Assembly: GCA_903830945.1 (NCBI GenBank)
Contig: CAIKVT010000036.1
Coordinates: 62,001-126,000 of the forward strand
DNA from: an uncultured Elusimicrobia bacterium
GTDB taxonomy: Bacteria > Elusimicrobiota > Elusimicrobia > UBA1565 > UBA9628
Direction of reading: 5' to 3'
Length of the DNA: 64,000 nucleotides
In this document: positions 2,873 through 61,206 of the stretch, piece by piece
Position numbering within the stretch: the first letter of the stretch is position 1
How the letters are laid out: every line of letters begins with the position of its first letter
Program-made: the position numbers and the translations under genes
Notes under the pieces: generated by a model
Databases searched by the model: none
What the model saw: only the letters and a program-made list of their open reading frames with translations
Told to the model about the DNA's origin: nothing

Positions 2873-3568
2873 TTATTTCTCCGGCGCTCCCGCCAGGCAG
2901 GGCTTGGAGAGTTCGGCCTCGTGCTCCTGCAGGCATTGGGCGATCCGGAAGCCGATGAGCGGCGCGTCCTTGCAGAATTTCTTGACATCGGACTGGCAGG
3001 CTTCGGCGATGTAGTGGGACGGCTTCTGGGCCTTCTCGCGCAGGCTCCTGCAGGGGCCTATGAGTTCGGCATCGTGCTCCTGGAGGCAGTTCAGGATGGC
3101 GTCGGCGAAGAGCGGGACGTAACGGCAAGACTGCTCGATGACGGTCTGGCAGGAGGCGCGCAGCTCGCGCAGTTCCGCGCGGCGATTTTGGCAGGCTCCG
3201 GAGAACTCGGCTTCATGCGAGTCCAGGCACCTCATGCGGATGGCCTGGGGCTGGCTGCCCACGCAGAATCTTTCCAGCTCGGTCCGGCACGGGTCTCCGT
3301 AGAGGACCTGCTTGGGCGTTTTGACGGATTGTGCGGGCACAGGCGTCGTCGCAGGCTGCTCCGTCGGAGTCGATTGAATCACCTGCGGCGATTGGATCGT
3401 TTGGGTCGACGGGCTCGGGGGCGTCGGCGGAGGCGGCTGCGAGGGCAGGTCTGCCGGCGTCGCGAAAGTCGGTTGGGTCGTCGTGGCTGGCTGGTCCGGC
3501 TGCGCCGACGCTGCGGAGGCGAAGAGCCAAGCCGCCCCGGCTAAAGCGAAGAGTGTCGATTTTTTCAT
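2873..3568 (-). CDS. Secreted cysteine-rich GLG1-type repeat protein
   Basis: The 231-residue product has a signal peptide (MKKSTLFALAGAAWLFASAASA) and then a Pro/Thr/Gln-rich linker to about residue 85. About 140 residues with four repeats of the form C-x(3)-[LI]-x-x-[FS]-C ... CL-x(2)-[HC]-x-x-[EA]LxxxC follow. Each repeat resembles the cysteine-rich GLG1 repeat, known mainly from Golgi glycoprotein 1 but also found in bacteria. The protein is therefore an exported, probably disulfide-stabilised binding protein of unknown ligand. The start is supported by a consensus promoter placing the ATG 6 bases after the -10 box. Confidence 0.8.
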   Translation of the reverse strand: MKKSTLFALAGAAWLFASAASAQPDQPATTTQPTFATPADLPSQPPPPTPPSPSTQTIQSPQVIQSTPTEQPATTPVPAQSVKTPKQVLYGDPCRTELERFCVGSQPQAIRMRCLDSHEAEFSGACQNRRAELRELRASCQTVIEQSCRYVPLFADAILNCLQEHDAELIGPCRSLREKAQKPSHYIAEACQSDVKKFCKDAPLIGFRIAQCLQEHEAELSKPCLAGAPEK

Positions 3569-3574
3569 GAGGGT

Positions 3575-3603
3575 ATCATAGCGAAACCCGGACTGCTTGA
3601 CAA
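3575..3603 (-). promoter_or_regulatory. Sigma70-like promoter, leaderless start of the Cys-rich protein gene
   Basis: On the reverse strand, a TTGTCA -35 (3598-3603), a spacer of exactly 17 and a TATGAT -10 (3575-3580) are followed after only 6 bases by the ATG at 3568. The transcript would begin at or next to the start codon. There is no room for a Shine-Dalgarno sequence. This is the best-formed example of the leaderless pattern in the window. Confidence 0.7.
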
Positions 3604-3738
3604 TCGCCGTCGGCTCTGGCGAGCCGTCCGGCCGCGGCGTCTTGGTCCGGTTTTATCCGGGACCCTCGGGTGAAGCGACGTTGAAATGACTTCGCGCCAA
3701 CAGTGCGGAGAGATGCATATTCCGGCTCGCTATCGTGG

Positions 3739-3773
3739 TATAATAATTCTGCTTTCCTGAATAACGGAGGAGG
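3739..3773 (+). promoter_or_regulatory. Extended -10 promoter and strong Shine-Dalgarno for the HEAT protein gene
   Basis: TGG followed by TATAAT (3739-3744) forms an extended -10. A GGAGGAGG Shine-Dalgarno at 3766-3773 sits 7 bases before the ATG at 3781. This fixes the start, although an in-frame start exists upstream at 3703. No good -35 is visible. Confidence 0.6.
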
Positions 3774-3780
3774 ATCCGTC

Positions 3781-4701
3781 ATGATGAGACTGACAGTCTT
3801 GTTTGCGTCCCTTTGCATTCCCGCCTCAGCCGCACCGCTGGTTCCTCTGTCGGACGCTGATTTTGCCGCTTCTGTCTCGCGTGTCAGCGTCCAGACCAGC
3901 GTCCTTTCCGCAAAATTCATGGCCGCGTCCATCGACATACAGGACGCGCAGATCGTGGCCTCGATGCGCGAGCAGAATCCCGAGGTGCGCATCGCGGCGC
4001 TCAAGTACGCTCGTTCCACTCCCCGGATCCAGCATGCCGTCGTGCGTCAGCAGGTCTCGGCCATGGCCGCCAATGAATCGGACCTCGACGCGAAGGTCGA
4101 GGCCGTCCGCACGCTTTACTGGGTCACGTCCCCCCATGAGACGCAGCAGCTGCTCTTTAGATTGGCCCGGCAGGATCAGTCGCCCCGGGTCCGGAGCATG
4201 GCTTACAAGGCCCAGCACACGATCGCGTCGCACACCTCCACGATCGCCAGCGACATCGTCAAGGAGTTCGGCAGCGAGACGGATCTGGAGGTGCAAAAAG
4301 CCGCGGTCTGGGCGCTTTTCGAGAGCGGCGGTTTTCCTATCGTCCGCGACACTCTGCTGCGCGTGAGCGCGGATGCCGATCTGGACCAGGGCCTGCGCGT
4401 GGCGGCGGTCAAGAGCCTCTACGGCGCCATGCAATATTCCGAGATCTGGCACGGGATGCTCCGGCTGGCCAACGACGCGACCCAGCCCAAGGACCTGCGC
4501 TTGGCCGCGATCCTCGTCTTGAACGGGAGCAACAGTTCGGAAGTCATCCACCCGATCGAGGCTCTGCTGCGCAACTCGGATCCGGATGTCCGCGCCGCGG
4601 CGCTCCAAGCCGCCGGCAATCTCACCCCGGAATTGCGCCGATTCTTCCACCTCGGGTACACGGTCGCTAATCAGTACATCAGCCCTATAGAAAACGAGTA
4701 G
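3781..4701 (+). CDS. Secreted HEAT-repeat protein
   Basis: The 306-residue protein starts with a short signal peptide (MMRLTVLFASLCIPASA). The rest is a series of helical HEAT-type repeats, with recurrent patterns such as PEVRIAALKYA, PRVRSMAYKAQ, LEVQKAAVWALFESGG, LRLAAILVLNG and PDVRAAALQAAGNL. Such proteins are scaffolds that bind other proteins in the periplasm or outside the cell; no catalytic motif is visible. The start was chosen from the GGAGGAGG at 3766-3773, which gives an intact signal peptide, over the longer in-frame ATG at 3703. It stands alone between convergent or divergent neighbours. Confidence 0.8.
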   Translation: MMRLTVLFASLCIPASAAPLVPLSDADFAASVSRVSVQTSVLSAKFMAASIDIQDAQIVASMREQNPEVRIAALKYARSTPRIQHAVVRQQVSAMAANESDLDAKVEAVRTLYWVTSPHETQQLLFRLARQDQSPRVRSMAYKAQHTIASHTSTIASDIVKEFGSETDLEVQKAAVWALFESGGFPIVRDTLLRVSADADLDQGLRVAAVKSLYGAMQYSEIWHGMLRLANDATQPKDLRLAAILVLNGSNSSEVIHPIEALLRNSDPDVRAAALQAAGNLTPELRRFFHLGYTVANQYISPIENE

Positions 4702-4820
4702 GGCCCGGCGTTCCGACGGCAAGGAGATCGTCACTCCGCGATGGCTCATCATCTCTATCCACGTGGGGATGTGAAGCACCGCGCGGGCTCAACTGAGGTT
4801 CTCCGCAGGGTTAAACTGGA

Positions 4821-4837
4821 TCGGATTTATAATCCGA
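4821..4837. other. Short perfect inverted repeat in the 4702-4926 gap
   Basis: The 225-base gap between the HEAT gene and the converging Yip1 gene holds a 7-bp perfect inverted repeat, TCGGATT-TAT-AATCCGA, with another AATCCG just downstream. It could be a weak hairpin or an operator. I see no coding sequence in the gap. Confidence 0.3.
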
Positions 4838-4926
4838 CGCAATCCGTAAAAACAGTGTGGGCCGTTCTGTCCGACCATCCTGCGCCGCCGCCGGGGGCTT
4901 CCGGCCCGGTGGTAGACCCATAGGGC

Positions 4927-6399
4927 TCAGTGCGCCAGCCGGCCTAGAGCGTCGAGGTCTACGGTGTCCAGGGCCGCGCGCACGACCTTCATGTCCACGT
5001 CGCGTCCAGTCACCTTGATCGCGAAGCGTTGAGCGGCGATCAGTTGGATCGAGCCGGCACGCTCGGCCTTGCGGTACTCCTCGAGCGTCTTGGCGCCCTT
5101 GTAGATCGTGCTCCGCTTGAAGCCGGTCTCGTCTCTTTGGTCGATGTTCGAGGCGTCCCATGCCGTGGAGAGCAGGCCGCTGTAGCTGCCCGCGTCGATA
5201 AGCTGGATCTCGATTTTTCCTCCGGTCGCGGATTCATAGGTGCCCGTCGCCGCGGACATCTCCATGGGCCCTAGTCTCTGGCGCCCGCTCTCCGCATCCG
5301 TGCGCCGCATGTCCGGGATCTCTCTGGGCAGCAGCCCTTTGAGGGCGTCCGGCATCACCGCCTGGATGCTCGTATCCGCGCCCAGCGCGCCCAGCGCGCT
5401 GCTCAGCGCTTGCATGGCCTGGGCGGTGGCCGGGGGCTGGCCCGAACTGGGCGCGGCGCCGGTCGGAAGTGCGCCCTGGCCGGCCTCGATGAGCGATTGC
5501 AGAGCGCGCGTCTGGGGGATCATCCCGCCTCTTTGCGCTATCATGCGGCGCAGCTTCCACATGGTGAAAGTCGAGTTGAGCAGTCCCAGCAGGGCGAGAC
5601 CGCTGAACAGCAGGGCTACGACGGATGCCTTCATCCGTCCTATCATATGGACTTCGGTCGAGGCCGGCAGGAAGAGGTATACCCCGTAGAGAGACACTGC
5701 TATGGCCAGCCATAGGCCCACGACCGGAAGGGCTTGGACTACCGCGTGGATCGGCATCAGTGCGCTCATGAAGGCGATGCAGCGTAGGGAAACCTCGAAG
5801 GGCTGCTGGGAGCCCAGGACGGTCCAGATGACATGGGTGATCCCAGCGACCACCACGGCCGCGATCGGGACCACGATCAGCGCGGTGAAGATCGAGAAGA
5901 GTCCGGCGAAGAGCGCGATCGACGTCCCTGACCCGAAGAGCCCGAACACGAGGCCCAGGACGAGTCGCAAAAGAGCGCCGGCCAAGGACATGGTGAGGAG
6001 AAACACCATAGGCTCCTGCCAGCCGCCGCTTCTGGGCATGGTCCGGAAGAAATCGACGGGATCGAGCACCACGGAGCGCGCCCGTGGCAACAGGCCTTGC
6101 GTCTGGGCCAATAGGGCCGGCCCGCTATCTATGGTGCGGGTTGGGGAGGGGTCCTGCGCCGGGGCGGCGGCGCCTGAAGGCGCGGCCGCGGGGAATATGT
6201 CGGCGAATGTTTTCGGCGATCTCCGCATGGGGGGCGCGGTCGCGGGGATGGGCGTCGGCGGGGGCGAAACGGCCAAGAGTACGGCTTTCTCGATATCGGC
6301 GGCGGAGGCCCCCGCCTTCAGGAGTGCGGCTTTGAGCGTATCCATGGGATACTTATCTTTATTCTTGCGGATGTAGTCCACGCAGCGCGGGTCGACCAT
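4927..6399 (-). CDS. Yip1-domain membrane protein with unknown soluble C-terminal domain
   Basis: The 490-residue protein begins with a short helical segment (RCVDYIRKNKDKYPMDTLK) resembling a UBA-like helix bundle, then a Pro/Ala linker to about residue 95. A five- or six-helix membrane domain follows (about 100-285). Its entry LDPVDFFRTMPRSGGWQEP, followed by hydrophobic helices, is typical of bacterial Yip1-family proteins. The remaining 200 residues are soluble, contain KIEIQLIDAGSYSG, and match nothing I recognise. Role unknown. An AAGGAA precedes the ATG. It is divergent from the acyltransferase gene across a 101-base gap. Confidence 0.7.
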   Translation of the reverse strand: MVDPRCVDYIRKNKDKYPMDTLKAALLKAGASAADIEKAVLLAVSPPPTPIPATAPPMRRSPKTFADIFPAAAPSGAAAPAQDPSPTRTIDSGPALLAQTQGLLPRARSVVLDPVDFFRTMPRSGGWQEPMVFLLTMSLAGALLRLVLGLVFGLFGSGTSIALFAGLFSIFTALIVVPIAAVVVAGITHVIWTVLGSQQPFEVSLRCIAFMSALMPIHAVVQALPVVGLWLAIAVSLYGVYLFLPASTEVHMIGRMKASVVALLFSGLALLGLLNSTFTMWKLRRMIAQRGGMIPQTRALQSLIEAGQGALPTGAAPSSGQPPATAQAMQALSSALGALGADTSIQAVMPDALKGLLPREIPDMRRTDAESGRQRLGPMEMSAATGTYESATGGKIEIQLIDAGSYSGLLSTAWDASNIDQRDETGFKRSTIYKGAKTLEEYRKAERAGSIQLIAAQRFAIKVTGRDVDMKVVRAALDTVDLDALGRLAH

Positions 6400-6487
6400 G
6401 AATGTTTCCTTGCCTTTGGCAGCCTTGCCATTTTACACAATATCGTTCCGATACAACTTGGGACAGACTGGGGTTCGTCCATATTGA

Positions 6488-6493
6488 TATAAT
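6488..6493 (+). promoter_or_regulatory. -10 box 7 bases upstream of the acyltransferase start
   Basis: A perfect TATAAT lies 7 bases before the ATG at 6501. Transcription would start at or beside the start codon, and there is no Shine-Dalgarno. The -35 is weak. Confidence 0.55.
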
Positions 6494-6500
6494 CTAAGAC

Positions 6501-7364
6501 ATGGTAGAAGTCGGGTCCGCAGCCGGAGCGCCCCGGGGCGTCGGACCGGAACCGGAATCCGAGGACAGGGCGCTGCGGGAGTCCACGCTCCATCCCGAGC
6601 GCATCCCCTACCGCGGGCCGGTCTTCCATTTTTTCTGGCCATTCACCCGGTATATCGTGACCAGCTTTTCGGCGGTGGCCGCGTTCGTCTTCTTCAAGCT
6701 TCTCAACCGGACCATCGTCATCGGCAAGAAGAACGTGGGCGTGGGGATGAACACCGTCCTTTTGGCCAATCACCAGAGCATGATCGACGGTTTCCTGGTG
6801 GGCGCGATGGTGTTCTTCCCGAGAAGCCTTCTCCAGCCCGAGCTTTTCCCATGGCTGCCGGCCGCGTGGGAGAACTTCTTCGAGAACCCGCTCATGCGCT
6901 GGTTCTCCGACAACTGGCGCTGCATCCCGGTCCGCAAAGGGCGCAAGGATGTGGGCGCAATGCTGCGCATGGAGGCCTGCCTGCGCGACGGCATCATGAT
7001 CGTGTTCCCGGAAGGGACCCGCACCCGCGACGGCCGGCTCCTGCCGCCGCGCTCGGGCATCGGCTACGTGATGCTCAAGACCCGGCCCAAGGCCATCCCG
7101 GTGTGCATGGACGGCATGAGCGGGCTCCAGCCCGTGGGACATTTCTGGCCGCGCGTGTTCCGCACCATCCTGATCTACTACGGTCGGCCCGTGGACCTCA
7201 CGGAGTTCTACTCCCGGCCGGTCGGCCGGGAGGCGGCGCAGGACGCCATCGAGAAGGTCTTCGCCGAAGTCGGGCGTCTGCAGAAAATCCTGGCCCGCTA
7301 CCGGCGCACCCGGCGGCGCCTGCTCGCCAAGAAGCCCTGGTTCTGTCGGCTCTATAAGCCCTGA
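6501..7364 (+). CDS. 1-acylglycerol-3-phosphate acyltransferase family protein (PlsC-like)
   Basis: A 287-residue membrane-associated acyltransferase. An N-terminal hydrophobic segment (FWPFTRYIVTSFSAVAAFVFF) precedes the catalytic HxxxxD motif (ANHQSMID), a GCIPVRKG-like block (WRCIPVRKGRKD), the acyl-acceptor motif FPEGTRTRDG, and KAIPVCMDGM. It transfers an acyl chain from acyl-ACP or acyl-CoA to lysophosphatidic acid or a similar acceptor in phospholipid synthesis. The C-terminus is basic. Other phospholipid genes are not adjacent. Its start follows a TATAAT by 7 bases, suggesting a leaderless message. A strong hairpin terminator follows the stop. A relative acting on another acceptor, such as an ornithine lipid, is possible. 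Confidence 0.9.
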   Translation: MVEVGSAAGAPRGVGPEPESEDRALRESTLHPERIPYRGPVFHFFWPFTRYIVTSFSAVAAFVFFKLLNRTIVIGKKNVGVGMNTVLLANHQSMIDGFLVGAMVFFPRSLLQPELFPWLPAAWENFFENPLMRWFSDNWRCIPVRKGRKDVGAMLRMEACLRDGIMIVFPEGTRTRDGRLLPPRSGIGYVMLKTRPKAIPVCMDGMSGLQPVGHFWPRVFRTILIYYGRPVDLTEFYSRPVGREAAQDAIEKVFAEVGRLQKILARYRRTRRRLLAKKPWFCRLYKP

Positions 7365-7368
7365 TCCG

Positions 7369-7399
7369 CCCCTAGCGCACGGTAGTGCGCTGGGGTTTT
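7369..7399 (+). terminator. Rho-independent terminator after the acyltransferase
   Basis: CCCC-t-AGCGCAC, loop GGTA, GTGCGCTGGGG (7369-7380 with 7385-7395), then TTTT. The stem is 11 bp with one bulged T, starting 5 bases after the stop codon. A second small hairpin (GCCCAA-tgcgg-TTGGGC) follows at about 7427-7443. Otherwise the 7400-7518 stretch holds no clear promoter or ORF. Confidence 0.75.
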
Positions 7400-7691: not shown

Positions 7692-7706
7692 TCGTCGGCC
7701 CATGAG

Positions 7707-18165: not shown

Positions 18166-18531
18166 TTAGGGTTCGCAGCAGAGCACGGTCCCCAGATCCG
18201 GCAGGTCGAAGGGCTTGGCCATGAACGCGCCGACTTCAGCCTCCCTGACCTTGGCTTCGTTCTTGGGTTCGCCGCTCATCATCACGACCTTGAGGGGGGG
18301 GTCCTGGTTCCGAAGCCGCCTGGCGACTTCGATGCCGTCGAGCTCATCGCCCAGGTCCACGTCGGCCAGGAGTATGTGGAACTTGCCGACTTCGAAGGCC
18401 TGCAGTGCCGCAGCGCCGCTGTCGGCGGCGACGACTTCCCAACCCAGCTTGGTGGTGAGGTAGAAACTGAGGAGTTCGAGGAGCGAGGGTTCGTCCTCGA
18501 CGATCAGGATGCGTTTAGGCTCGGAGGGCAT
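18166..18531 (-). CDS. Single-domain response regulator (receiver)
   Basis: The 121-residue CheY-like receiver has KRILIVEDEPS (acidic pair), phospho-acceptor Asp in LLADVDLG, MMSGEP (Thr/Ser position) and the conserved Lys in FMAKPF. There is no output domain. The product therefore works through protein contacts or phosphotransfer; no histidine kinase gene is in the window. The start at ATG 18531 is preferred to an upstream in-frame TTG at 18570, because a consensus promoter (-35 at 18565-18570) covers that TTG. Convergent with the debranching enzyme gene across 53 bases that hold nothing recognisable. Confidence 0.9.
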   Translation of the reverse strand: MPSEPKRILIVEDEPSLLELLSFYLTTKLGWEVVAADSGAAALQAFEVGKFHILLADVDLGDELDGIEVARRLRNQDPPLKVVMMSGEPKNEAKVREAEVGAFMAKPFDLPDLGTVLCCEP

Positions 18532-18541: not shown

Positions 18542-18570
18542 AGTATAGGATCGGACCCGGGAAAATGCAA
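18542..18570 (-). promoter_or_regulatory. Sigma70-like promoter of the response regulator gene
   Basis: TTGCAT (-35, 18565-18570), a spacer of 17 and TATACT (-10, 18542-18547) are followed after 10 bases by the ATG at 18531. The predicted leader is 0-4 bases. Confidence 0.65.
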
Positions 18571-19514: not shown

Positions 19515-19520
19515 ATTATA
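19515..19520 (-). promoter_or_regulatory. -10 box 6 bases before the zinc-ribbon start
   Basis: A perfect TATAAT on the reverse strand is separated from the ATG at 19508 by 6 bases. The -35 is weak. It fits the leaderless pattern seen elsewhere in the window. Confidence 0.55.
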
Positions 19521-23166: not shown

Positions 23167-23987
23167 GGGAGTCTCTCCAGGAGGCGGTTTTTTAGGGTGG
23201 CGCGTCGAGGCGCGCCCAGGGGGCCGAACCAGAATTCCCAGGAGCGTAGGGCTTGGGACACGAGCATGCCGCTGCCGCCCAGCACGCGGGCGCCTAGGCG
23301 TTGGGCTTGGCGCTGGAAAGCGGTGCGGCGGCCGTAGACCAGGTCCAAGGCCAGGCCGCAGCCCGGCCAATCCGGAGCCGCCGGTGAGCGGTCCGGCAAG
23401 CCCAGCAGGCCCAGCGGTGTGGCGTTGACGGCGAGGTCCACGGCCGCGGGGCGGCCCGCGGTGAAGACGGTGCTCGGGAAGCTCGCGGCCATGGCGCGGG
23501 CCAAGGCCAGGGCCGCTTCGGGACGGCGCGCGGCGATGGTGACGCGGCGGGCGCGCAGGCGGCCCAGGGCGCAAAGCACGGCCCGGGCCGCGCCGCCCGC
23601 TCCGAAGACGAGAGCGTCGCGGCCGGCGACCGTGAACCCCGACTCCCGCAAAGTGTCGGTGAAGCCGGATGAGTCCGTATTGTGGCCCAGGAGTCGGCCT
23701 TGGCCGCAGCGGATGACGTTGACAGCGCCGGCGAGCCTGGCTTCGGGGGTCAGGCCGTCGAGCAAACCGACGATGGCCACCTTGTGGGGCACCGTCACGT
23801 TTCCGCCCAGCATCCCGGACCATCGCAGGAGCTCGACTGCGCAGGTCAGCCGCTCGGAGGGGACGTCGCAGGCGCGGTAGAGCACCTTGCGCCGGGTCAG
23901 GCGGCCGAGGTCGGCCATGAGGCGCGGGGAGAAGGAATGCGCGACGGGGTGCCCCAGGAGGCAGAGCTTCACGGATTCTCGGGGCAC
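23157..23987 (-). CDS. aroE: Shikimate dehydrogenase
   Basis: NADPH-dependent reduction of 3-dehydroshikimate. The 276-residue protein has the substrate-binding GHPVAHSFSPRLM, catalytic Lys in NVTVPHK, HNTDSSGF, the dinucleotide loop FGAGGAARAV, the basic NADP-selective stretch AARRPEAA, and VNATPLGL. The start codon is GTG; a CATAAT lies 5 bases upstream, so a local leaderless promoter inside the aro cluster is possible. A 55-base gap separates it from aroA, the largest gap in the cluster. Confidence 0.94.
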   Translation of the reverse strand: MPRESVKLCLLGHPVAHSFSPRLMADLGRLTRRKVLYRACDVPSERLTCAVELLRWSGMLGGNVTVPHKVAIVGLLDGLTPEARLAGAVNVIRCGQGRLLGHNTDSSGFTDTLRESGFTVAGRDALVFGAGGAARAVLCALGRLRARRVTIAARRPEAALALARAMAASFPSTVFTAGRPAAVDLAVNATPLGLLGLPDRSPAAPDWPGCGLALDLVYGRRTAFQRQAQRLGARVLGGSGMLVSQALRSWEFWFGPLGAPRRATLKNRLLERLPCP

Positions 23988-23997
23988 GAGCTATTAT

Positions 23998-24022
23998 GGA
24001 AAATTAATGAAAGCCTGGCACG
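23998..24022 (+). repeat. Half-copy of a REP-like repeat between aroA and aroE
   Basis: AAAATT-nn-TGAAAGCCTG with flanking bases matches one arm of the 82-bp inverted repeat at 61272-61353 (17 of the first 20 positions). Only one arm is present. It fills most of the aroA-aroE gap. Confidence 0.4.
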
Positions 24023-28150: not shown

Positions 28151-28156
28151 ATCTTA
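28151..28156 (-). promoter_or_regulatory. Extended -10 box 6 bases before the M18 start
   Basis: TGC-TAAGAT on the reverse strand ends 6 bases before the ATG at 28144. No Shine-Dalgarno is present. The same TGC-TAAGAT plus 6-base arrangement recurs at the zincin gene (41946-41951). Confidence 0.5.
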
Positions 28157-28160: not shown

Positions 28161-28186
28161 ATGGGGTCAGGTCTTGACATTTGACC
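28161..28186 (+). repeat. REP-like single arm
   Basis: It contains TGGGGTCAGGTCTTGA followed by CATTTGACC. The 15-mer GGGGTCAGGTCTTGA recurs exactly, in opposite orientation, at 33009-33025. It overlaps the likely -35 region of the M18 promoter. Confidence 0.5.
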
Positions 28187-28641: not shown

Positions 28642-28647
28642 AGTATA
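28642..28647 (-). promoter_or_regulatory. -10 box 7 bases before the small membrane protein start
   Basis: TATACT on the reverse strand, 7 bases before the ATG at 28634, in an AT-rich patch. No Shine-Dalgarno. Confidence 0.5.
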
Positions 28648-28751: not shown

Positions 28752-29993
28752 TCAATGGAACGGCGGGAAAACGCCCCGCAGCTGCACGGGCTCGGTTCGG
28801 ATGGGCGCGCCCATGCACCGGAGCGCGGCCTCGACCTTGGCGAAGCCCTCCATGGCCGTGTATCCCGTCTGGTCCGTGTACCACAGGTAGGTTTTGCCGC
28901 CGTCCTTGTCGCGCAGGAGATAGCCTTTCGCCTCGGAGCTGGCCATGAGCGCGGCTTGGCCCGCGGCCATCATTCCGCGCCGGCCGCCCATCAGCGATAA
29001 AAGCGCCAAGATCCGCACCAGCCAGACCGGGGCTTTCATGGTCACGGCCTGAACCTCGGCCAGTCCGCTGAAAGCCAGGTCTTCTTCGCCCCAGAGGTGT
29101 CCGATGCGCAGACGATCCGGCAGCACGGTCACGTAGAAGGCGCTCCAGATCGCGCCCCAGTAGAGGACGAGGAGGCCGAAGAGAGCGAAGATCCAGAAGA
29201 CGGCCGTGAAGAAGAAGTACTCGGTCGCGGCTTGCCGGGAGCTGCCCACGATGAACAGGGGAAGGGCGAAGAATATGAAGAAAAGAAGAAGAGCGGAAGC
29301 CAGGTCCGAGCCCACGATCCGCCAGCGGGCCACCATAGCGGTATCGGCCGCGCGTTTGGGCCAAGGCAGTAGGAAGTAGACCAGGACCGTCAGAACCGTC
29401 AGCCATGGCGTCCAGCGTATGGACGGGTAGCAGAACGCAGGCGGGATGCCGTAGAAGCCGCAGTTGAGCCCCGAGGTCCTGAGACGCGGGTGATAGAACA
29501 GCTCGAGATAGCGCGGCGGCGTGGAGTCGAGCTTCAGGTAGTAGGCTTCCTCGGCCGAGAACCGGCCGGAGACTGCGGCGAAGGGGGGCTCGGCCGCCCA
29601 AAAGAAGAGCCTGGTGAAGTCGTGCCGATCCTTCCCCCATCGGTTTGCGGGACGTCGGCTGGCCTTGAGCTGGTCGGCCATGACGCGATGCTCCCAGCCT
29701 GGGGGGACCACGCTCTGCTCCAGGGCTGCCTGCGCGCGGTCGAAGAACCCCCGCCAATCGGGGCCCGAGACCACGGCGACGCGGCTCTTGATCCGATAGG
29801 CGATGAATTCCTCAGGGGAGAGCTGGCATTCGGCGCGGCCGTCCGGCGTGGGCCGACGCGAACCCTCCTGGGACTTGGCGAAGTCTATCAGCTGGATCGA
29901 GAGGAACGGGACGGCGGGGGTCAGCCGCAGCAGCCAGGCGACTGCGGCTAGGCCGGCGATGAGTACGACGCGGCGGGTTATCTCGCGGGGCAT
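28752..29993 (-). CDS. Multi-pass membrane protein of unknown function
   Basis: The 413-residue protein has an N-terminal hydrophobic helix (residues about 8-27) and an extracytoplasmic domain to about 190 containing an Asn-Cys-Gly-Phe-Tyr region. Three further membrane helices follow (about 190-285). A C-terminal soluble domain starts AFYVTVLPDRLRIGHLW, a strand-rich segment resembling bacterial PH-like domains. I do not recognise a family. It lies 117 bases upstream of the small membrane protein gene on the same strand but has its own -10 box. Confidence 0.6.
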   Translation of the reverse strand: MPREITRRVVLIAGLAAVAWLLRLTPAVPFLSIQLIDFAKSQEGSRRPTPDGRAECQLSPEEFIAYRIKSRVAVVSGPDWRGFFDRAQAALEQSVVPPGWEHRVMADQLKASRRPANRWGKDRHDFTRLFFWAAEPPFAAVSGRFSAEEAYYLKLDSTPPRYLELFYHPRLRTSGLNCGFYGIPPAFCYPSIRWTPWLTVLTVLVYFLLPWPKRAADTAMVARWRIVGSDLASALLLFFIFFALPLFIVGSSRQAATEYFFFTAVFWIFALFGLLVLYWGAIWSAFYVTVLPDRLRIGHLWGEEDLAFSGLAEVQAVTMKAPVWLVRILALLSLMGGRRGMMAAGQAALMASSEAKGYLLRDKDGGKTYLWYTDQTGYTAMEGFAKVEAALRCMGAPIRTEPVQLRGVFPPFH

Positions 29994-29999: not shown

Positions 30000-30005
30000 A
30001 TTTTA
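30000..30005 (-). promoter_or_regulatory. -10 box 6 bases before the membrane protein start
   Basis: TAAAAT on the reverse strand, 6 bases before the ATG at 29993; no Shine-Dalgarno. Confidence 0.45.
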
Positions 30006-31044: not shown

Positions 31045-31050
31045 TATCAT
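31045..31050 (+). promoter_or_regulatory. -10 box 5 bases before the radical SAM start
   Basis: TATCAT on the forward strand, 5 bases before the ATG at 31056, within an AT-rich tract that also lies upstream of the divergent DsbA-like gene. -35 not clear. Confidence 0.4.
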
Positions 31051-31055: not shown

Positions 31056-32339
31056 ATGCTTCGGACGTCCCTCATTCTTTACTACACCAAGCTCAATCGC
31101 TTCAGTATCGCCGCGTTGGCCGGCGCCTTGGAGCCGCGCTTGGAACTGCGCGGCTTGCCGATTTCCTTCCCTTCTGACCCGGCGCGGCTGCGCCTGGCCT
31201 TGCGCGCTGCTTTGCGCCGCCAGGACCGCGTGGTGGTCGGCTTTTCCCTGGCGACTCCTCAGATGGACGGCTTGGCCTCATTTTTGGCCCGCCTAAGGGA
31301 GGATTTTCCGGAGCGTGTGCTCTGGTTGGCGGGCGGGCCCCATCCTAGCGCGGACCCGGCCGGCACTTTGCGGTTGGGCTTCGACCTCGTGGTCCGCGGC
31401 GAGGGGGAGGAGACCCTCGCGGAACTGCTCACGTGCCTGTGCCAGGGCGAGGACGGCCAAGGCCTGGCCGGGGCTTCGTGGCTGGACGGCCAAGGCCGAT
31501 GCCGTTTGGGAGGGACCAGGCCGCTCGCGGACCTCGACCGCCTGCCGCCGTTCTCTCCCGGCCACCGCATCTTCGGGCCTATCGAGATCACGCGCGGCTG
31601 CCCTTTCGCCTGCGGCTTCTGTCAGACCGCCGCCCTATTCGGCCGGCGGCCGCGGCATCGCAGCCCGGCCGTGGTGGCCCACTACGCGGGCTTGCTGGCC
31701 GCACGGGGGATGTTCGACTTGCGTGTGGTCACGCCCAACGCTTTTTCTTACGGCTCGTCCGACGGTCGAGCTCTCAACCTCGCCGCCCTGCGCGAGCTTC
31801 TTCGGGCGGTGCGACGAGCTCAAGGTCCCTCCGGGCGGATATTCTTCGGTTCCATGCCTTCGGAAGTGCGGCCGGAGCACGTCAGCGCCTCCACGTTGAG
31901 CCTTGTGCGCCGTTACGCCGCCAACGACAACCTGGCTATCGGGGCGCAGTCCGGCAGTCAGCGCGTCCTCGACGCGGCGGGCCGGGGGCATAGCGTTGCA
32001 GATATCGTGGCCGCCGTGACCGCGACCCGTAAGGTCGGGCTCAAGGCCAACGTGGATTTCATTTTCGGCATGCCTGGGGAGATGGAATCGGACCAGGAGC
32101 GGTCCTTGGTTTTGATCCGGCGCTTGGTCGCGCTGGGCGCGCGCATCCATGCCCACTGGTTCATGCCTTTGCCGCAGACGTGCTTTGCGGCCCTGCCGCC
32201 GGCGCCGATGCTGCCGCTTTTGGGCGCGGAGCTCGCCCGGCTGGCCGCGGCCGGTGTCCTTTATGGGCAATGGCAGGCTCAGGAGAGCCTGGCCAGGCGA
32301 CTGGATTGTAGTCTCGATAAGTTGGTTTTTGAGAAATAA
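31056..32339 (+). CDS. B12-binding domain / radical SAM protein
   Basis: The 427-residue protein has an N-terminal Rossmann-like B12-binding region (VVGFSLATPQMDGLASFL, WLAGGPHPSADP, LVVRGEGEETLAELL). A radical SAM core with the cluster motif CPFACGFCQ follows (CxxxCxxC), preceded by IEITRG. NVDFIFGMPGEME and the later HWFMPLPQT also fit the fold. It resembles the archaeal/bacterial family typified by MJ1487. The reaction is unknown, perhaps methylation or another radical modification. The start at 31056 gives LRTSLILYYTKLNRFS, matching family N-termini; the longer open frame upstream is antisense to the DsbA-like gene. Confidence 0.88.
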   Translation: MLRTSLILYYTKLNRFSIAALAGALEPRLELRGLPISFPSDPARLRLALRAALRRQDRVVVGFSLATPQMDGLASFLARLREDFPERVLWLAGGPHPSADPAGTLRLGFDLVVRGEGEETLAELLTCLCQGEDGQGLAGASWLDGQGRCRLGGTRPLADLDRLPPFSPGHRIFGPIEITRGCPFACGFCQTAALFGRRPRHRSPAVVAHYAGLLAARGMFDLRVVTPNAFSYGSSDGRALNLAALRELLRAVRRAQGPSGRIFFGSMPSEVRPEHVSASTLSLVRRYAANDNLAIGAQSGSQRVLDAAGRGHSVADIVAAVTATRKVGLKANVDFIFGMPGEMESDQERSLVLIRRLVALGARIHAHWFMPLPQTCFAALPPAPMLPLLGAELARLAAAGVLYGQWQAQESLARRLDCSLDKLVFEK

Positions 32340-33008: not shown

Positions 33009-33025
33009 TCAAGACCTGACCCCCA
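33009..33025 (-). repeat. REP-like single arm in the decarboxylase leader
   Basis: TCAAGACCTGACCCC is the exact reverse complement of the 15-mer in the 28161-28186 arm. The two face each other across 4.8 kb. Confidence 0.5.
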
Positions 33026-39603: not shown

Positions 39604-39650
39604 ATGATACTAAAAAGATGAGAGAGGAGCATGTCGCCTTTATGTATAAT
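39604..39650. promoter_or_regulatory. Divergent promoters between adaptor and TolC-like genes
   Basis: Reverse strand: TATCAT (39604-39609) about 28 bases before the adaptor ATG. Forward strand: TGTATAAT with TATAAT at 39645-39650, 10 bases before the TolC-like ATG at 39661. The two -10 boxes are about 40 bases apart, so both directions share one regulatory patch. Confidence 0.5.
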
Positions 39651-39660: not shown

Positions 39661-40956
39661 ATGCACTCAATACTTCTGTCCGTCTTCCTGCTGAGCGGCC
39701 TGGCCGCGGTCGCGGATGAGCCCGCGATCTCTATTCAAGACGGAGAGGTCCTCTCCTTGCAGCGCTGTGTTGCCATAGCCCTGGCGCGTGACCCGGACCT
39801 ACGCGGCCTGGGTTATGCCGCCGACGCCGCCGACGCGCGCCTGCTCCAGGCCCGATCCCAGTATCTGCCTTCGGCCAGCGCCACGGCGGGCTACCAGAAG
39901 AATGACGCGGTCAAGAGGAACTTGGAGGATCCTTACCGCAGCCCTGCTCTCAATACCTTTGACGATAAGACCGTCGGAGTGTCGGTAAGCGAACTCATCT
40001 TCGATTTCGGCAAGCGCTACTCCTCGGTCAAGGCTGCTCGCTTCCTGCGCGACGCGGCCAGGTCCCAGCGCGATTCTTTGGCAGTCAAGGTCGCCGCCGA
40101 CGTCAAGCAGGCTTATTATGCAGTGCTGCAGGCCAAGCGCGCGCGCGCCCTGCGCTCCGAGATGGTTGAGCAGTTTAAGCAGCACCTTTCCGTGGCCAGG
40201 ACGCGCTTCGAGGCGGGCGTGCGGCCTAAGTATTTTGTGACCAAGGCGGAGACGGACCTGAGCACCGCCGAGCTTGATTTTCTGCGGGCTGATAAGGAAC
40301 TGCAAGTAGCTCAGGCGGTCTTGGCTGCGGCCATGAATTTTTTCAGCGCGCCGGCTTTCGACATCGTGGACACCCTCGACTTTGAGAAATATGAGGCCGA
40401 GCTCGATGACATCTTGGCTAAGGCTTTTTCGACGCGCCAGGACCTCCAGGCGCTTTCGGAGCAGACGAAGGCGGCCGGTAAGAGCCTTGCCGCTGCGCGA
40501 GGGGACCTCTTTCCAGCTTTTTACGCGACCGCAGGCTACCAGTTTGCGGGCAGCCGAGCGCCGCTTAGCAACGGCTGGAACGCGGGAGTCAATGTCACCG
40601 CGGACCTCTTTTCAGGATTTCGCAAGATCGGCGAGCTTTCCGAGGCAAAGGACTTCCTGCGCCAGACCGAGACCAAGGTGGAGAGCCTCAGGCGCCAGAT
40701 AGGGCTTGATGCCCGTAAGGCTTTTCTCGCCTTGCAGGAAGCGGAGAAGGCCATCAAGACCGCGACTCAGGGTCGCGGCCAGGCCAAGGAGAATCTGGAG
40801 ATCGCGGAGACCAACTACACCACGGGTTCCGGCACGCCGGTGGAGGTAACGGATGCGGCCGTGCTCTACAGCAATGCCAGCATGAGTCTCATCTCAGCCC
40901 TCTACGACTACAGGGTCGCCCGAGCCAACATCGAGAAGACCATGGGGATGAGGTAA
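39661..40956 (+). CDS. TolC-family outer-membrane efflux protein
   Basis: The 431-residue protein has a signal peptide (MHSILLSVFLLSGLAAVA) and two structural repeats of outer-membrane efflux proteins. The first has LSLQRCVAIALARDPDLRGL and the long-helix pair to VKQAYYAVLQAKRARAL. The second has DLQALSEQTKAAGKSLAAARGDLFPAFYATAGY. The C-terminus (YTTGSGTPVEVTDA) is typical of the family. It completes the tripartite system with the adaptor and pump on the opposite strand. The start at 39661 is preferred to 39631, since the -10 box lies between them. Confidence 0.93.
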   Translation: MHSILLSVFLLSGLAAVADEPAISIQDGEVLSLQRCVAIALARDPDLRGLGYAADAADARLLQARSQYLPSASATAGYQKNDAVKRNLEDPYRSPALNTFDDKTVGVSVSELIFDFGKRYSSVKAARFLRDAARSQRDSLAVKVAADVKQAYYAVLQAKRARALRSEMVEQFKQHLSVARTRFEAGVRPKYFVTKAETDLSTAELDFLRADKELQVAQAVLAAAMNFFSAPAFDIVDTLDFEKYEAELDDILAKAFSTRQDLQALSEQTKAAGKSLAAARGDLFPAFYATAGYQFAGSRAPLSNGWNAGVNVTADLFSGFRKIGELSEAKDFLRQTETKVESLRRQIGLDARKAFLALQEAEKAIKTATQGRGQAKENLEIAETNYTTGSGTPVEVTDAAVLYSNASMSLISALYDYRVARANIEKTMGMR

Positions 40957-41945: not shown

Positions 41946-41951
41946 ATCTTA
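41946..41951 (-). promoter_or_regulatory. Extended -10 box 6 bases before the zincin start
   Basis: TGC-TAAGAT on the reverse strand, 6 bases before the ATG at 41939; same layout as the M18 gene. Confidence 0.5.
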
Positions 41952-45722: not shown

Positions 45723-45757
45723 ATTATAGCAATCTCTTCGCCAGCATATTGTAGAAT
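45723..45757. promoter_or_regulatory. Divergent promoters between DedA and XdhC-MocA genes
   Basis: Reverse strand: TGC-TATAAT (45723-45728), 9 bases before the DedA ATG (leaderless type). Forward strand: TAGAAT (45752-45757), 25 bases before the ATG at 45783. Confidence 0.5.
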
Positions 45758-50187: not shown

Positions 50188-50193
50188 AGTATA
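50188..50193 (-). promoter_or_regulatory. -10 box 7 bases before the PQ-loop protein start
   Basis: TATACT on the reverse strand, 7 bases before the ATG at 50180; no Shine-Dalgarno. The remaining bases to 50309 hold no other clear signal. Confidence 0.5.
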
Positions 50194-53257: not shown

Positions 53258-53265
53258 ACGTTAGT

Positions 53266-53314
53266 ATTCTAGTAAATCTGTGTTGGAAAATCGGCGCTTC
53301 TGGTTTTGTAGTAT
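53266..53314. promoter_or_regulatory. Divergent leaderless promoters of hisS and the AddB-like gene
   Basis: Reverse: TAGAAT (53266-53271), 8 bases before the hisS ATG. Forward: TAGTAT (53309-53314), 7 bases before the AddB-like ATG at 53322. The two genes are separated by only 64 bases. Confidence 0.5.
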
Positions 53315-53321
53315 CTCTTCT

Positions 53322-56802: not shown

Positions 56803-56830
56803 AGGGCCTCCAAAATATTGCGAGCCGACA

Positions 56831-57826
56831 TTATACCACTTCGTGGGCCCGGAGCCGGCCCGCGAGGGTGAGTTCCTCACGGTCGTGAAAGAGGTGCCGC
56901 GCTCGTAGGATTGCGCAGCGTTGGGCGATGCCGGTGCGCTCCGAAAAGACCTCGCGCAGCAGCAGCAGAGGATCGTGGCGGCCGAACTTGAGATTGACGA
57001 TGAAGCGGGAACACCAGCGGCCCTCCACCCACAGCCGCAGAAGTTCGAGGACCTTATGCGGTTCGTCCAGGAGGTCGCAGAAGAGCCAGTCCACCGGCGG
57101 TCGGGGCTGGAACTTGAAGGCGTCCTGCTCGGCATGCTTGATAGAGGGATTTCCCGAGGCGCCGCCCTTTAAGGGACCGTTGTCCACGGCCAGGACGCGC
57201 GCCCCGCGTTTGGCTGCGCTGTAGCTCCAGCCGCCGGGTGCGGCGCCCAAGTCCGCCACGGTCTGTCCCGGCTGCGGAGCCTCGCCCAGCACGCCGTAGG
57301 CTTCCTCGACCTTGAGGAAGGAGCGGGATGGGGCCTGTGGGTCGTCGGCCATGCGGCGCTGGCCGCCGGCCCGGGCGCGGCGCGCGGCGAAGGCGCGGCC
57401 GAAATCCGTGAGATAGACGAAGAGGCCGCGGCGCTCTCCGATCTCTGGTCGGCCATTCTGGGCGAGTTTGATGACCCGTGCCATGCGGCTGACCCGCCCG
57501 TGGAAGGCGTCCTCCACGCTGCGGCAACGCGCCTTCAGGCCCTCGACCGCCGCGGCCTCAAAGTATAGCGGCCAGGGCGTCTCGTAGCGCTCGTCAACGC
57601 TGGTGCGCAGGAAATAGTCGGCTACGCCCCCGGCCAAGGCGTTGACCGTGGCGGCTTTGAGTTCGATGGGCTTCAAGATGGAGAGATGCGCGAAGCAGAG
57701 CTCGCTCTGGTCGTCTTCGGCGAGGACCCAGCCCGGGCCTTTGGCCAGGGTGGAGCCGGCTTCTTTGGCCAGGAACGGCTCGAAGCCGGCTTGGCAGATG
57801 TGGAGAGAGGGGGTCTTCTGTCGCAT
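56831..57826 (-). CDS. FtsJ-like 23S rRNA 2'-O-methyltransferase (RlmM type)
   Basis: The 331-residue protein has an N-terminal THUMP-like region and a C-terminal Rossmann methyltransferase: VADLGAAPGGWSYSAAKRGARVLAVDNGPL (SAM motif). The K-D-K-E tetrad is visible as Lys in SRSFLKVEEA, Asp in LFCDLL, Lys in FIVNLKF and Glu in HDREELTL. This is the layout of RlmM, which methylates C2498 of 23S rRNA. Its start lies 18 bases after TATAAT (57845-57850). Confidence 0.88.
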   Translation of the reverse strand: MRQKTPSLHICQAGFEPFLAKEAGSTLAKGPGWVLAEDDQSELCFAHLSILKPIELKAATVNALAGGVADYFLRTSVDERYETPWPLYFEAAAVEGLKARCRSVEDAFHGRVSRMARVIKLAQNGRPEIGERRGLFVYLTDFGRAFAARRARAGGQRRMADDPQAPSRSFLKVEEAYGVLGEAPQPGQTVADLGAAPGGWSYSAAKRGARVLAVDNGPLKGGASGNPSIKHAEQDAFKFQPRPPVDWLFCDLLDEPHKVLELLRLWVEGRWCSRFIVNLKFGRHDPLLLLREVFSERTGIAQRCAILRARHLFHDREELTLAGRLRAHEVV

Positions 57827-57844
57827 GGCTGCGGCCTTCGTGGG

Positions 57845-57894
57845 ATTATAGCGTTTGTGCGGCCCGCTTCACCCTACTTGGGAATTGGTATGCT
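57845..57894. promoter_or_regulatory. Divergent promoters between RlmM-like and phosphoketolase genes
   Basis: Reverse: TATAAT at 57845-57850, 18 bases before the ATG. Forward: TGG-TATGCT (57889-57894), with an AGGAGG Shine-Dalgarno before the GTG start at 57917. Confidence 0.5.
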
Positions 57895-57916
57895 CTGATT
57901 AGTCCAGGAGGAATCC

Positions 57917-60307
57917 GTGAAATCAACCCAATTCGCCGAAGAAGCCGCCGGCAAACCCATCGCGCCCGACTTGCTCAAGAAGATGGACGCCTACTGGCGC
58001 GCGGCCAACTACCTCTCCGTGGGCCAGATATATCTTTACGGCAACCCGTTGCTCAAGAAGCCGCTCAAGATCGAGCATATCAAGCCGAGGCTGCTCGGCC
58101 ATTGGGGCACCACTCCGGGGCTCAACTTCATCTACGTGCACATGAACCGCGTCATCAAGGAGCGTGACCTCGATGCGCTCTTCATTGCCGGGCCGGGCCA
58201 CGGCGGGCCGGGGCTGGTGGCCAACACCTATCTGGAAGGCACCTACAGCGAGGTCTACTCCAACATCTCGCAGGACGAGGAGGGGATGAAGAAGCTCTTC
58301 ACCCAGTTCTCCTTCCCGGGAGGCATCCCCAGCCATGTGGCTCCGGAGACTCCGGGCTCTATCCACGAAGGCGGCGAGTTGGGCTACGCTCTCTCGCACG
58401 CTTATGGCGCGGCCTTCGACAATCCCGACCTTTTGGTCTGCTGTGTGGTCGGAGACGGCGAGGCCGAGACCGGGCCGTTAGCTACGAGTTGGCATTCCAA
58501 TAAGTTCCTCAATCCGGTTACGGACGGGGCGGTGCTGCCGATCTTGCATCTCAATGGTTATAAGATCGCCAACCCCACCATACTGGCCCGTATCCCACAT
58601 CAGGAGCTCGAGGATCTCATGCGCGGCTATGGCTACAAGCCTTATTTCGTCGAGGGCTCAGATCCCATGGCTATGCATAAGCTGATGTCCGAGACTTTGG
58701 ACAAGGCGCTGGCGGACATCAAGCGCATCCAGTCCGAGGCGCGGAGCAAGGGGTTCTCCAATCGACCCGCCTGGCCTATGATCGTTCTGCGCACTCCCAA
58801 GGGCTGGACCGGGCCTAAGGTGGTCGACGGCAAGCCGGCAGAGGGCAGTTGGCGTTCGCACCAGGTGCCGTTTTCCGATATGTCCGAGAAGTCGGGCCAC
58901 GTGCAGCTCTTGGAAGCTTGGATGAAGTCCTATAAGGCCGAGGAGCTCTTCGACGCCAAGGGTAAGCTCAAACCGGAGTTGGCTGAGCTGGCCCCGACGG
59001 GCCAGCGCCGCATGGGCTCCAACCCGCATGCCAACGGGGGAGAGCTTCTGCGGGCGCTCAAGATGCCGGATTTTCGAGACTATGCGGTACAAGTGCCTTC
59101 GCCTGGAGCCGCTGAGGCGGAAACCTGCCGGGTGCTGGGGACGTTTTTACGAGACGTGATGAAGCAGAATCTGGAGAGTCGCAACTTCCGGGTCTTCGGG
59201 CCGGATGAGACGGCCTCCAACCGGCTGGGCAATCTCTTCGAGGTGACGGACCGGGCTTGGATGGCGGAGAAGCTGCCCACGGACGATCATCTTTCGCCGG
59301 ATGGGCGAGTGATGGAGGTGTTGAGCGAGCATCAATGTCAGGGCTGGCTGGAGGGCTATCTTCTGACGGGGCGGCATGGTTTATTCTCGTGCTACGAGGC
59401 TTTCATCCATATCATCGACTCGATGTTCAATCAGCACGCGAAGTGGTTGAAGGTGACCAACCACATAGGCTGGCGTCGGCCGATCGCTTCTCTTAATTAC
59501 CTGCTGACTTCGCACGTGTGGCGGCAGGATCACAACGGCTTCAGCCACCAGGACCCGGGTTTCATCGACCACGTGGTCAATAAGAAGTCGGATGTGATCC
59601 GGGTCTATCTGCCGCCGGACGCGAATACCTTGCTGTCGGTGGCGGACCATTGCTTACGCAGCCGGCACTACATCAACGTGATCGTGGCGGGTAAGCAGCC
59701 GGCGCCGCAATGGCTGGACATGGACGCGGCGATCAAGCACTGCACCAGCGGCATCGGGATGTGGCAGTGGGCTTCGAGCGACAAGGGAGGCGAGCCGGAC
59801 GTGGTGATGGCTTGCGCTGGGGATGTGCCGACCTTGGAGACGTTGGCGGCGGTGCAGATGCTGCGGGAGAAGATCCCGTCCTTGAAGGTGCGGGTGATCA
59901 ATGTGGTGGACTTGATGACTTTGCAGTCGCCGAGCGAGCATCCGCATGGGTTGCCGGACGATGACTTCGACGATCTGTTCACGAAGAACAAGCCGATCAT
60001 CTTCGCCTATCACGGCTATCCGTGGCTGATCCACCGTTTGACGTACCGGCGGACGAACCACGATAACCTGCACGTGCGGGGGTATAAAGAAGAGGGGACG
60101 ACGACGACGCCGTTCGATATATGCGTGATGAACGACTTGGACCGGTTCCATCTGTTTTTGGATGTGGTCAACCGGGTGCCGAAGCTGGAGTCGGTGCAGG
60201 CGCATGTGAGGCAGGAAATGCGCGACAAGCTGGTTGAGCATAAGGAATATGTGCGCAAGCACGGGCAGGATATGCCGGAGATTTTGGAGTGGAAGTGGAG
60301 GGGGTAG
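57917..60307 (+). CDS. xfp: Phosphoketolase (xylulose-5-phosphate/fructose-6-phosphate)
   Basis: The 796-residue ThDP enzyme cleaves xylulose-5-phosphate or fructose-6-phosphate with phosphate to acetyl phosphate plus a shorter sugar phosphate. Family blocks: [81 protein letters not shown] (catalytic His), [21 protein letters not shown] (ThDP site), [26 protein letters not shown], and the C-terminal [14 protein letters not shown]. Length matches. The start is GTG with AGGAGG. Suggests a phosphoketolase shunt for fermentation. Confidence 0.97.
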
Positions 60308-60433
60308 GAGTGGGCGGTAGGATAGGCTAAGGTTTTAAGAGCGTTTTCGATTTCGTGGCCCAATCTCGCCGAAGAGATCAGGCGCACTAAACTGACGCTG
60401 GATGGGAGAAAAGGTCTGGCGGCGCCTAACTCA

Positions 60434-61195
60434 TCAACCTCGGAAGCCGCCGCCGGGCTTACGCTTGAAGCCCCCGGGCTTGCTCTTGAAATCGCCGGGC
60501 TTGCGGCCGCTGTATGGGCCGCTGGCGCCCCACTTTTTCTTGGGGCTGAAATCGTCGCGCTTTCCGTCGGAGCTTTTCATCTTATCCCAGGGCTTCTTCT
60601 CCCAAGGCTTCTTGCCGCCGAAATCGCCGGGTTTCTTGTCCTTGTCCCAGGGTTTCTTCTCCCAAGGCTTCTTGCCGCCGAAATCGCCGGGTTTCTTATC
60701 CTTGTCCCAGGGTTTCTTCTCCCAGGGCTTCTTGTCGCCGAAACCGCCGGGCTTTTTGTCCTTGTCCCAGGGTTTCTTTTCCCAAGGCTTCTTGCCGCCG
60801 AAGCCTGTTTTTTTGTCTTTGTCCCAAGGCTTCTTTTCCCACGGGCGCCTCTCGCCGGAGGTTCCAGCTGAGACGGCGGGTGGGCTACGCCGCCGGTCTT
60901 TGCCCGAACGGCGTTCTGGCCCGGTGTAGCCGCCGTTGTCCGGCTTGTCGGCCGGACGTGCCTCGTTGACGAACATCTGGCGGTGTCCGACGGTGGAGCC
61001 GTTGAGCTTGGTGATGGCGGCCTGCGCCTCGGCGTCCGTGCCCATAAGCACGAAGCCGATGCCGCGAGAGCGTCCTGTCTCGCGTTCCATCAGGATCTTG
61101 GCGCTGACCACGTTGCCGCAGTCGGCGAACAGCTTTCCCAGTTCCTCCTGGGTCAACTCGTACGGGAAGCCGGTGACGAACAGGTTATTGCCCAT
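60434..61195 (-). CDS. RRM RNA-binding protein with Lys/Trp/Pro-rich tandem repeats
   Basis: The 253-residue protein has one RRM (about residues 3-80) with both ribonucleoprotein motifs: LFVTGFPYEL and RGIGFVLMG. A basic, disordered C-terminus made of about five 20-residue repeats of KKPWEKKPWDKDKKPGDFGG follows, with a Gly/Lys-rich end. It is probably an RNA chaperone or cold-shock-type RNA binder. The predicted start codon lies 5 bases after GATAAT. The repeats are nearly identical at the DNA level (see 60584-60837). Confidence 0.88.
   Translation of the reverse strand: MGNNLFVTGFPYELTQEELGKLFADCGNVVSAKILMERETGRSRGIGFVLMGTDAEAQAAITKLNGSTVGHRQMFVNEARPADKPDNGGYTGPERRSGKDRRRSPPAVSAGTSGERRPWEKKPWDKDKKTGFGGKKPWEKKPWDKDKKPGGFGDKKPWEKKPWDKDKKPGDFGGKKPWEKKPWDKDKKPGDFGGKKPWEKKPWDKMKSSDGKRDDFSPKKKWGASGPYSGRKPGDFKSKPGGFKRKPGGGFRG
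60584..60837 (-). repeat. 60-bp tandem repeats inside the RRM gene
   Basis: Units at 60601-60660, 60661-60720, 60721-60780 and a 57-base unit at 60781-60837, with a partial unit from 60584. The first two differ at only one of 60 positions, indicating a recent duplication. In-frame expansion changes the number of repeats in the protein tail. Confidence 0.8.
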
Positions 61196-61200
61196 GCCAT

Positions 61201-61206
61201 ATTATC
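61201..61206 (-). promoter_or_regulatory. Extended -10 box 5 bases before the RRM gene start
   Basis: TGC-GATAAT on the reverse strand, 5 bases before the ATG at 61195; no Shine-Dalgarno. Confidence 0.4.

Follow-up and report, generated by a model that had tools for sequence, protein, structure and literature searches.

A probable sigma-A-type -10 box next to the start codon points to leaderless expression of some first genes in an Elusimicrobiota family

Leaderless genes with a promoter-like box at a short distance from the start have been delineated by Zheng et al. (2011; PMC3160421) as TA-led genes, which have the first T of a TANNNT motif some 12 bp before the start and occur alongside Shine-Dalgarno (SD)-led genes. 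In Deinococcus-Thermus, a TANNNT motif located about 6-7 bp before the ORF has been found by experiment to be a promoter -10 element that gives leaderless mRNA (Zhong et al. 2025; PMC12340547), and in mycobacteria, leaderless mRNAs have been measured by RNA sequencing beside SD-led ones (PMC3898074, PMC4633059). Leaderless transcription is predicted for 21.6% of bacterial species (PMC9581028). The main text of Zheng et al. does not contain "Elusimicrobi", and the list of leaderless groups in PMC3160421 omits the phylum and includes one unclassified genome; the accessible text of PMC10783764 names the phylum only in a table of anti-SD types, and in that of PMC7448276 the phylum name and the leaderless term co-occur. 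In searches of open-access article texts aimed at this phylum, no report of leaderless genes in Elusimicrobiota was found; the bacterial survey tables of PMC12340547 may include the phylum.

Here we analyze a 64,000-nucleotide stretch (hereafter, the window; G000:C36:62001-126000) of an Elusimicrobiota MAG (3.24 Mb, 84 contigs, 99.3% complete), together with a larger sample of the same genome and its relatives.

Sixteen starts in the window

The original prediction was that TATAAT-like hexamers precede 16 start codons in the window at a distance of 5-10 nt and that these starts lack an SD site. The hexamer is present at all 16 starts, with 4-6 of the 6 positions matching, and GGAG, GAGG and AGGA are absent 3-12 nt upstream at every one of them. 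The gap is shortest, 5 nt, at 23987, 31056 and 61195, and longest, 10 nt, at 18531 and 39661; strict TANNNT is broken at two of the 16, by CATAAT (23987) and GATAAT (61195). The boxes were scored with a -10 matrix of 12 columns, trained on 31 matches from relatives only, with a threshold score of 6; gaps of 4-12 were allowed for the listed sites and 5-9 for the genome counts given below. The threshold is reached at 15 of the 16 starts, the exception being 50180. The candidate elements are as follows.

3575-3603, minus strand: promoter of the ORF starting at 3568, with -35 TTGTCA (3598-3603), a 17-base spacer and -10 TATGAT (3575-3580); gap 6 to ATG; score 9.6
6488-6493, plus strand: -10 TATAAT of an acyltransferase gene (PF01553); gap 7 to ATG 6501; score 13.6
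18542-18570, minus strand: promoter of the response-regulator ORF 18531 (PF00072), with TTGCAT (18565-18570), 17 bases and TATACT; gap 10; score 7.7; the two orthologues read from the same genus also have TATACT, at gap 10 in one and gap 8 in the other
19515-19520, minus strand: -10 TATAAT of a 60-aa ORF with no Pfam match; gap 6 to ATG 19508; score 9.6
23993-23998, minus strand: CATAAT ahead of aroE (PF08501), possibly a chance match; gap 5 to GTG 23987; score 7.3
28151-28156, minus strand: -10 TAAGAT within ATTTGCTAAGAT, with TGC before the box, of an M18 aminopeptidase gene (NCBIfam); gap 6 to ATG 28144; score 10.4
28642-28647, minus strand: -10 TATACT of an ORF with no Pfam match; gap 7 to ATG 28634; score 7.6
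30000-30005, minus strand: -10 TAAAAT of the 413-aa ORF 28752-29993; gap 6 to ATG 29993; score 8.5
31045-31050, plus strand: TATCAT ahead of the ORF ending at 32339; gap 5 to ATG 31056; score 8.5; uncertain start, the caller having chosen 30969
39645-39650, plus strand: TATAAT; gap 10 to ATG 39661; score 8.7; ambiguous start because an in-frame ATG lies ahead at 39631
41946-41951, minus strand: -10 TAAGAT within TTGCTAAGAT, of an ORF with no Pfam match; gap 6 to ATG 41939; score 7.0
45723-45728, minus strand: -10 TATAAT within ATTGCTATAAT, of a VTT-domain protein gene (PF09335); gap 9 to ATG 45713; score 13.6
50188-50193, minus strand: TATACT; gap 7 to ATG 50180; score 5.6, under the matrix threshold
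53266-53271, minus strand: -10 TAGAAT within TTTACTAGAAT, of hisS; gap 8 to ATG 53257; score 12.6; the best-supported site
53309-53314, plus strand: TAGTAT ahead of the gene for an AddB/DNA-repair-like protein (NCBIfam, under curated cut-offs); gap 7 to ATG 53322; score 6.7; moderate
61201-61206, minus strand: GATAAT within TGCGATAAT, of an RRM-domain protein gene (PF00076); gap 5 to ATG 61195; score 7.5

Two of these sites had been described as complete promoters. The one at 3575-3603 is as described, its TTGTCA matching the -35 consensus at 5 of 6 positions. At 18542-18570, the elements and the 17-base spacer are in place, but "complete" is too strong a word for a TTGCAT that shares 3 of 6 positions with TTGACA; a TTG-type -35 at equal 17-base spacing is found in both same-genus orthologues of this response regulator that were read. 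The SD sites named as a contrast, at 3781, 7533, 33060, 57917 and 62832, are all present.

The 413-aa ORF (28752-29993, minus strand) has no Pfam match and no counterpart in the 43 other genomes of the family that were searched; it is an orphan gene with a leaderless-type promoter. More generally, Pfam searches of 20 boxed genes (6501 and 19 of the 39 scoring at least 7) returned ordinary functions, including polyprenyl synthetase, ABC transporter, acyl-CoA dehydrogenase, cyclophilin, class II tRNA synthetase, ROK and others, with 3 genes lacking a match; among ten further window genes, taken from the original prediction and their neighbors, 5 had no Pfam match.

A separate feature of this region is the word CAAGACCTGACCCC, which occurs at 28163-28176 and 33010-33023, with no other copy in the 712-kb genome sample described below; two M18 orthologues of the same genus also have it directly ahead of the promoter.

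Position and form of the box across the genome

The genome-wide sample, 712 kb with 574 genes, covered about 22% of the genome. Starts were assigned by our own caller, which uses codon preference and start-codon type only; because upstream signals are ignored, the called starts are not selected by those signals, although several window starts were put in the wrong place compared with the listed ones. A gene was considered transcription-unit-first (hereafter, first) if it was divergent from the previous gene by more than 30 nt or lay more than 60 nt behind it (n = 242), and operon-internal if it lay 20 nt or less behind the previous gene (n = 230). Refinement of the starts, allowing alternatives within 6 nats, raised the background to the same extent as the signal (51 versus a control mean of 18.6) and was dropped.

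The original prediction implied a peak of TANNNT at a short distance from start codons, and in this part of the genome, the peak was found. In the 242 first genes, TANNNT occurs 14, 18, 9 and 10 times at gaps 6, 7, 8 and 9, respectively, against about 4 per position, with the mode at 6-7, and in the 230 operon-internal genes, there is no significant TANNNT excess (p = 0.22). With the matrix, a box at gap 5-9 was detected in 44 of the 242 first genes, where about 8 are expected, versus 4 of the 230 operon-internal genes (Fisher 4e-10). In five-wide control windows farther upstream, the count averages 7.8 and never exceeds 17 of 242, and in 300 mononucleotide shuffles of the upstream regions, it averages 3.8 and never exceeds 10; Zheng et al. 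(PMC3160421) used dinucleotide-preserving shuffles. The excess is found both within the window, with automatic starts (8 of 29 first genes versus a 3.2% control rate; p = 2.7e-6), and outside it (36 of 213 versus the same rate; p = 5e-16).

The hexamers could be thought of as chance A+T-rich words in the promoter regions of ordinary leadered genes, given that TANNNT is frequent upstream at every distance (the background of about 4 per position in 242 genes) and that, among the listed sites, 50180 is weak and 39661 ambiguous. The set as a whole contradicts chance: counted individually, there are 45 matrix matches at gap 5-9 versus 7.9 expected from farther positions (p = 6e-20), which makes this explanation very improbable.

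The box and the SD site exclude each other. An SD peak is present in first genes and in operon-internal genes, and an SD site accompanies the box in 1 of the 44 boxed first genes of this genome; when the relatives are included, SD is found in 1 of 75 boxed genes versus 98 of 350 other genes (Fisher 1.4e-8). In the same combined set, ATG is the start codon of 67 of 75 boxed genes versus 263 of 350 others (p = 0.006). The base at -1, considered as a sign of transcription starting at the A, differs little, being C or T in 81% of leaderless-like and 69% of SD genes. By these strict tests, 151 of the 242 first genes show neither SD nor box, in part because starts were misplaced by the caller. The detected leaderless-type share amounts to about 15-18% of the first genes.

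The consensus of the box is close to TTTGCTATAAT, often with TGN ahead. In this genome, TGN precedes 13 of 41 peak boxes, 36 of 159 boxes farther upstream and 65 of 1835 intragenic TANNNT; together with the relatives, the counts are 24 of 72 peak boxes versus 52 of 264 farther upstream (p = 0.017). Being common at both peak and farther-upstream boxes, TGN appears to be a general promoter feature of this genome rather than a peak-specific one. No clear enrichment of a shared -35 was detected at spacers of 16-18 (at least 4 of 6 matches at about 21% of the boxes versus 16% of the control boxes). Upstream of the M18 gene, the bases preceding TTTGCTAAGAT vary among same-genus orthologues and the element is kept, a pattern that fits extended -10 promoters, in which the -35 would count less.

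Because the box occupies the position of a ribosome-binding site and excludes SD, it might be taken for an A/U-rich translation signal in the leader, such as an S1 or other non-SD site, rather than a promoter. However, operon-internal genes, which need a ribosome site and not a promoter, carry the box in only the 4 cases of 230 noted above, and the hexamer reads T-A-N-N-N-T, as a promoter element does, preceded by TG in one third of the cases, so that a translation signal seems extremely improbable.

The best explanation, in which we have high confidence, is that the box is a sigma-A-type -10 element placed such that transcription would begin at the start codon or no more than about 3 nt from it, in a substantial minority of first genes. 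Specifically, from its position and form, we infer a sigma-A-type -10 (TANNNT), often extended by TGN and with no shared -35, 5-10 and mostly 6-9 nt before the start codon, from which RNA polymerase would begin the transcript with the A of AUG or with a base about 3 nt away at most. The resulting mRNA, leaderless or almost so, would have no room for an SD site, and ribosomes would be expected to recognize the 5'-terminal AUG directly, with SD sites serving other genes, many operon-internal ones among them. It is on account of the promoter position that these mRNAs are called leaderless here.

Relatives and orthologues

The family to which the genome belongs was sampled with 44 genomes from 12 genera. 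A TANNNT peak was found in a same-genus genome (G040, p = 0.011) and in two other family members (G002, p = 8.5e-6; G024, p = 0.01); the sample of a further one, G043, consists of 10 first genes and is too small for a peak test. The matrix counts of the relatives are not independent because the matrix was trained on their boxes, whereas the TANNNT peaks are independent. Outside the family, matrix counts show no excess in the genomes of f3, f6, f7 and f10. In another family of the class (f4, genome G149, stretches L192-L201), 12 boxes were counted at gaps 5-9, 7 of these at gap 6, versus 5.1 expected (p = 0.006), a weak excess that may indicate that the trait reaches beyond the family of the window; in f9, there are 2 versus 0.3 expected, among only 14 genes. 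The same procedure applied to 200 kb of E. coli K-12 gave no peak (1.2 per position at gaps 5-9 versus a background of 2.1).

The best-supported case is hisS. The identity of hisS in the window is 85% with its counterparts on three named Elusimicrobia MAG contigs; with those on ten other named Elusimicrobia or Elusimicrobiota contigs, it is 55-59%. The gene was found in 41 of the 44 family genomes, and the best 30 of the 41 loci, including that of the window and covering 10 of the 12 genera, were read. TANNNT stands at gap 5-9 in 28 of these best 30 loci, with nine genera having at least one such locus, versus a maximum of 7 in shuffles and 0-2 in five-wide windows farther upstream; an SD core is present in 1 of the best 30. 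In an alignment anchored on the box, which by itself sets the T-A-T columns, more than 0.6 bit is otherwise reached by T at each of -5, -4 and -3, by C at -9 and at -1, and, inside the box, by A/C at its fifth position; no -35 column rises above 0.6 bit. Among named Elusimicrobia, several of which overlap the family set, the box precedes hisS in 12 of 12 (1 dropped), versus 0 of 66 loci from other phyla, where 52 have SD and 14 neither (1 dropped). Conservation of both the hisS box and its spacing further argues against chance words.

The orthologues also bear on the possibility that the start codons are miscalled and that the true starts lie downstream, behind ordinary leadered promoters. The starts are predictions, and those at 39661, 53322 and 31056 are ambiguous. 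Nevertheless, an in-frame ATG or GTG with SD within 30 codons downstream occurs in only 2 of the 44 boxed genes, compared with 3 of the 47 genes that have SD and 15 of the 151 that have neither signal, and in the aligned hisS orthologues, the conserved N-terminal peptide begins directly after ATG or GTG. We consider wholesale miscalling hardly credible and retain the sigma-A-type -10 as the explanation of the box.

Besides hisS, orthologues of the leaderless-type M18, RRM, 28752-29993 and response-regulator genes were searched for in the family; for the last, three closest loci only were used because the farther matches are largely paralogues. Two SD-led genes served as the contrast: 62832 and a phosphoketolase gene, for which no loci were obtained. 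For the RRM gene (61195), ATAAT at gap 5 is kept in the window and in 6 of 6 same-genus orthologues; across all 30 loci, which include distant orthologues or paralogues, a strict box is found in 10 and SD in 12. The box type of M18 is shared by this genome and 3 of the 6 same-genus relatives read, and a strict count over 13 loci gives 4 with box and 4 with SD. The 62832 gene, SD-led in the window, has SD in 25 of its best 30 orthologues; 5 of the 30 carry a strict box, 1 of them together with SD. Thus, genes change type, between SD-led and -10, within the family, and since the type differs between species in M18, RRM and 62832, not every box is strongly constrained.

Individual loci show altered forms. 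In M18 loci L249, L251 and L252, from another genus, TGAAAT or TGGAAT (TGNNAT) occupies the -10 position, the A at the second position being lost and the spacing kept. In the 62832 orthologues L326, L332 and L336, TACCAT or TATCAT lies near the start and SD is missing, an apparent change to the leaderless type.

As to the ribosome, bS21 (PF01165) is encoded in this genome and in 139 of 149 genomes of the phylum, and for this reason, the idea that absence of bS21 accompanies the trait was dropped. A match to the anti-SD tail CACCTCCTTTC was obtained for 11 of the 44 family genomes, two of them from the same genus; the 16S 3' end was absent from the MAG of the window by exact pattern and with 2 mismatches, and the 16S end may be missing from that assembly.

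Comparison with known systems

The proposal of a mixed system, partly SD-led and partly leaderless-type, agrees with what is seen in the genome sample, in its relatives and among orthologues. The "large share" of leaderless mRNAs that it included has to be reduced to the 15-18% of first genes, which is not most mRNAs.

A broader reading, for which belief and doubt are about evenly matched, is that leaderless expression, driven by promoters with an extended -10 and largely independent of a -35, could be a stable trait of one Elusimicrobiota family, gained separately from Actinobacteria and Deinococcota. Under this reading, hisS would be locked in across at least 9 genera and other genes would flip between SD-led and leaderless, on ribosomes that retain bS21 and, judging by the relatives, an intact anti-SD. 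If so, the family would make it possible to study, in naturally occurring variants, how the initiation mode of a gene changes. The present data extend leaderless-type expression to one family of a little-studied phylum and provide groups of orthologues from one family in which a gene is SD-led in some members and leaderless-type in others. They are also a warning that gene callers relying on SD may put starts in the wrong place in Elusimicrobiota MAGs of this family.

The likeness to Deinococcus that had been suggested is borne out by D. deserti plasmid 2 (250 kb), where the peak is at gaps 6-7, with 3.6 per position at gaps 5-9 versus 0.7. The TANNNT excess in first genes is similar, (56-20)/242 or about 15% in our genome versus (18-3.6)/113 or about 13% in the plasmid. 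The lineage matrix performs weakly on the plasmid (4 of 113 first genes versus 0.9 expected; p = 0.011) and is therefore specific to the Elusimicrobiota lineage. The samples differ in the bases ahead of the box, TGN preceding 13 of 41 peak boxes here and none of the 15 from the D. deserti plasmid; this is a feature of the samples and not part of the published definition of the Deinococcus motif. In the Deinococcus-type -10 motif as described in PMC12340547, the box lies about 6-7 bp from the ORF, compared with the peak at 6-9 here. With the TA-led genes of Zheng et al. (PMC3160421), the boxed genes of this genome share TANNNT at a short fixed gap, its significant excess over shuffled upstream regions, the near-absence of SD, the concentration at first genes and the mixture with SD-led genes. 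Mycobacteria (PMC3898074, PMC4633059) belong to another phylum, and their leaderless mRNAs were measured on RNA, whereas here we infer them from DNA; the genome is mixed in both. The phenomenon is thus known elsewhere (PMC3160421, PMC12340547), and, relative to the accessible parts of these sources, Elusimicrobiota is a new lineage for it.
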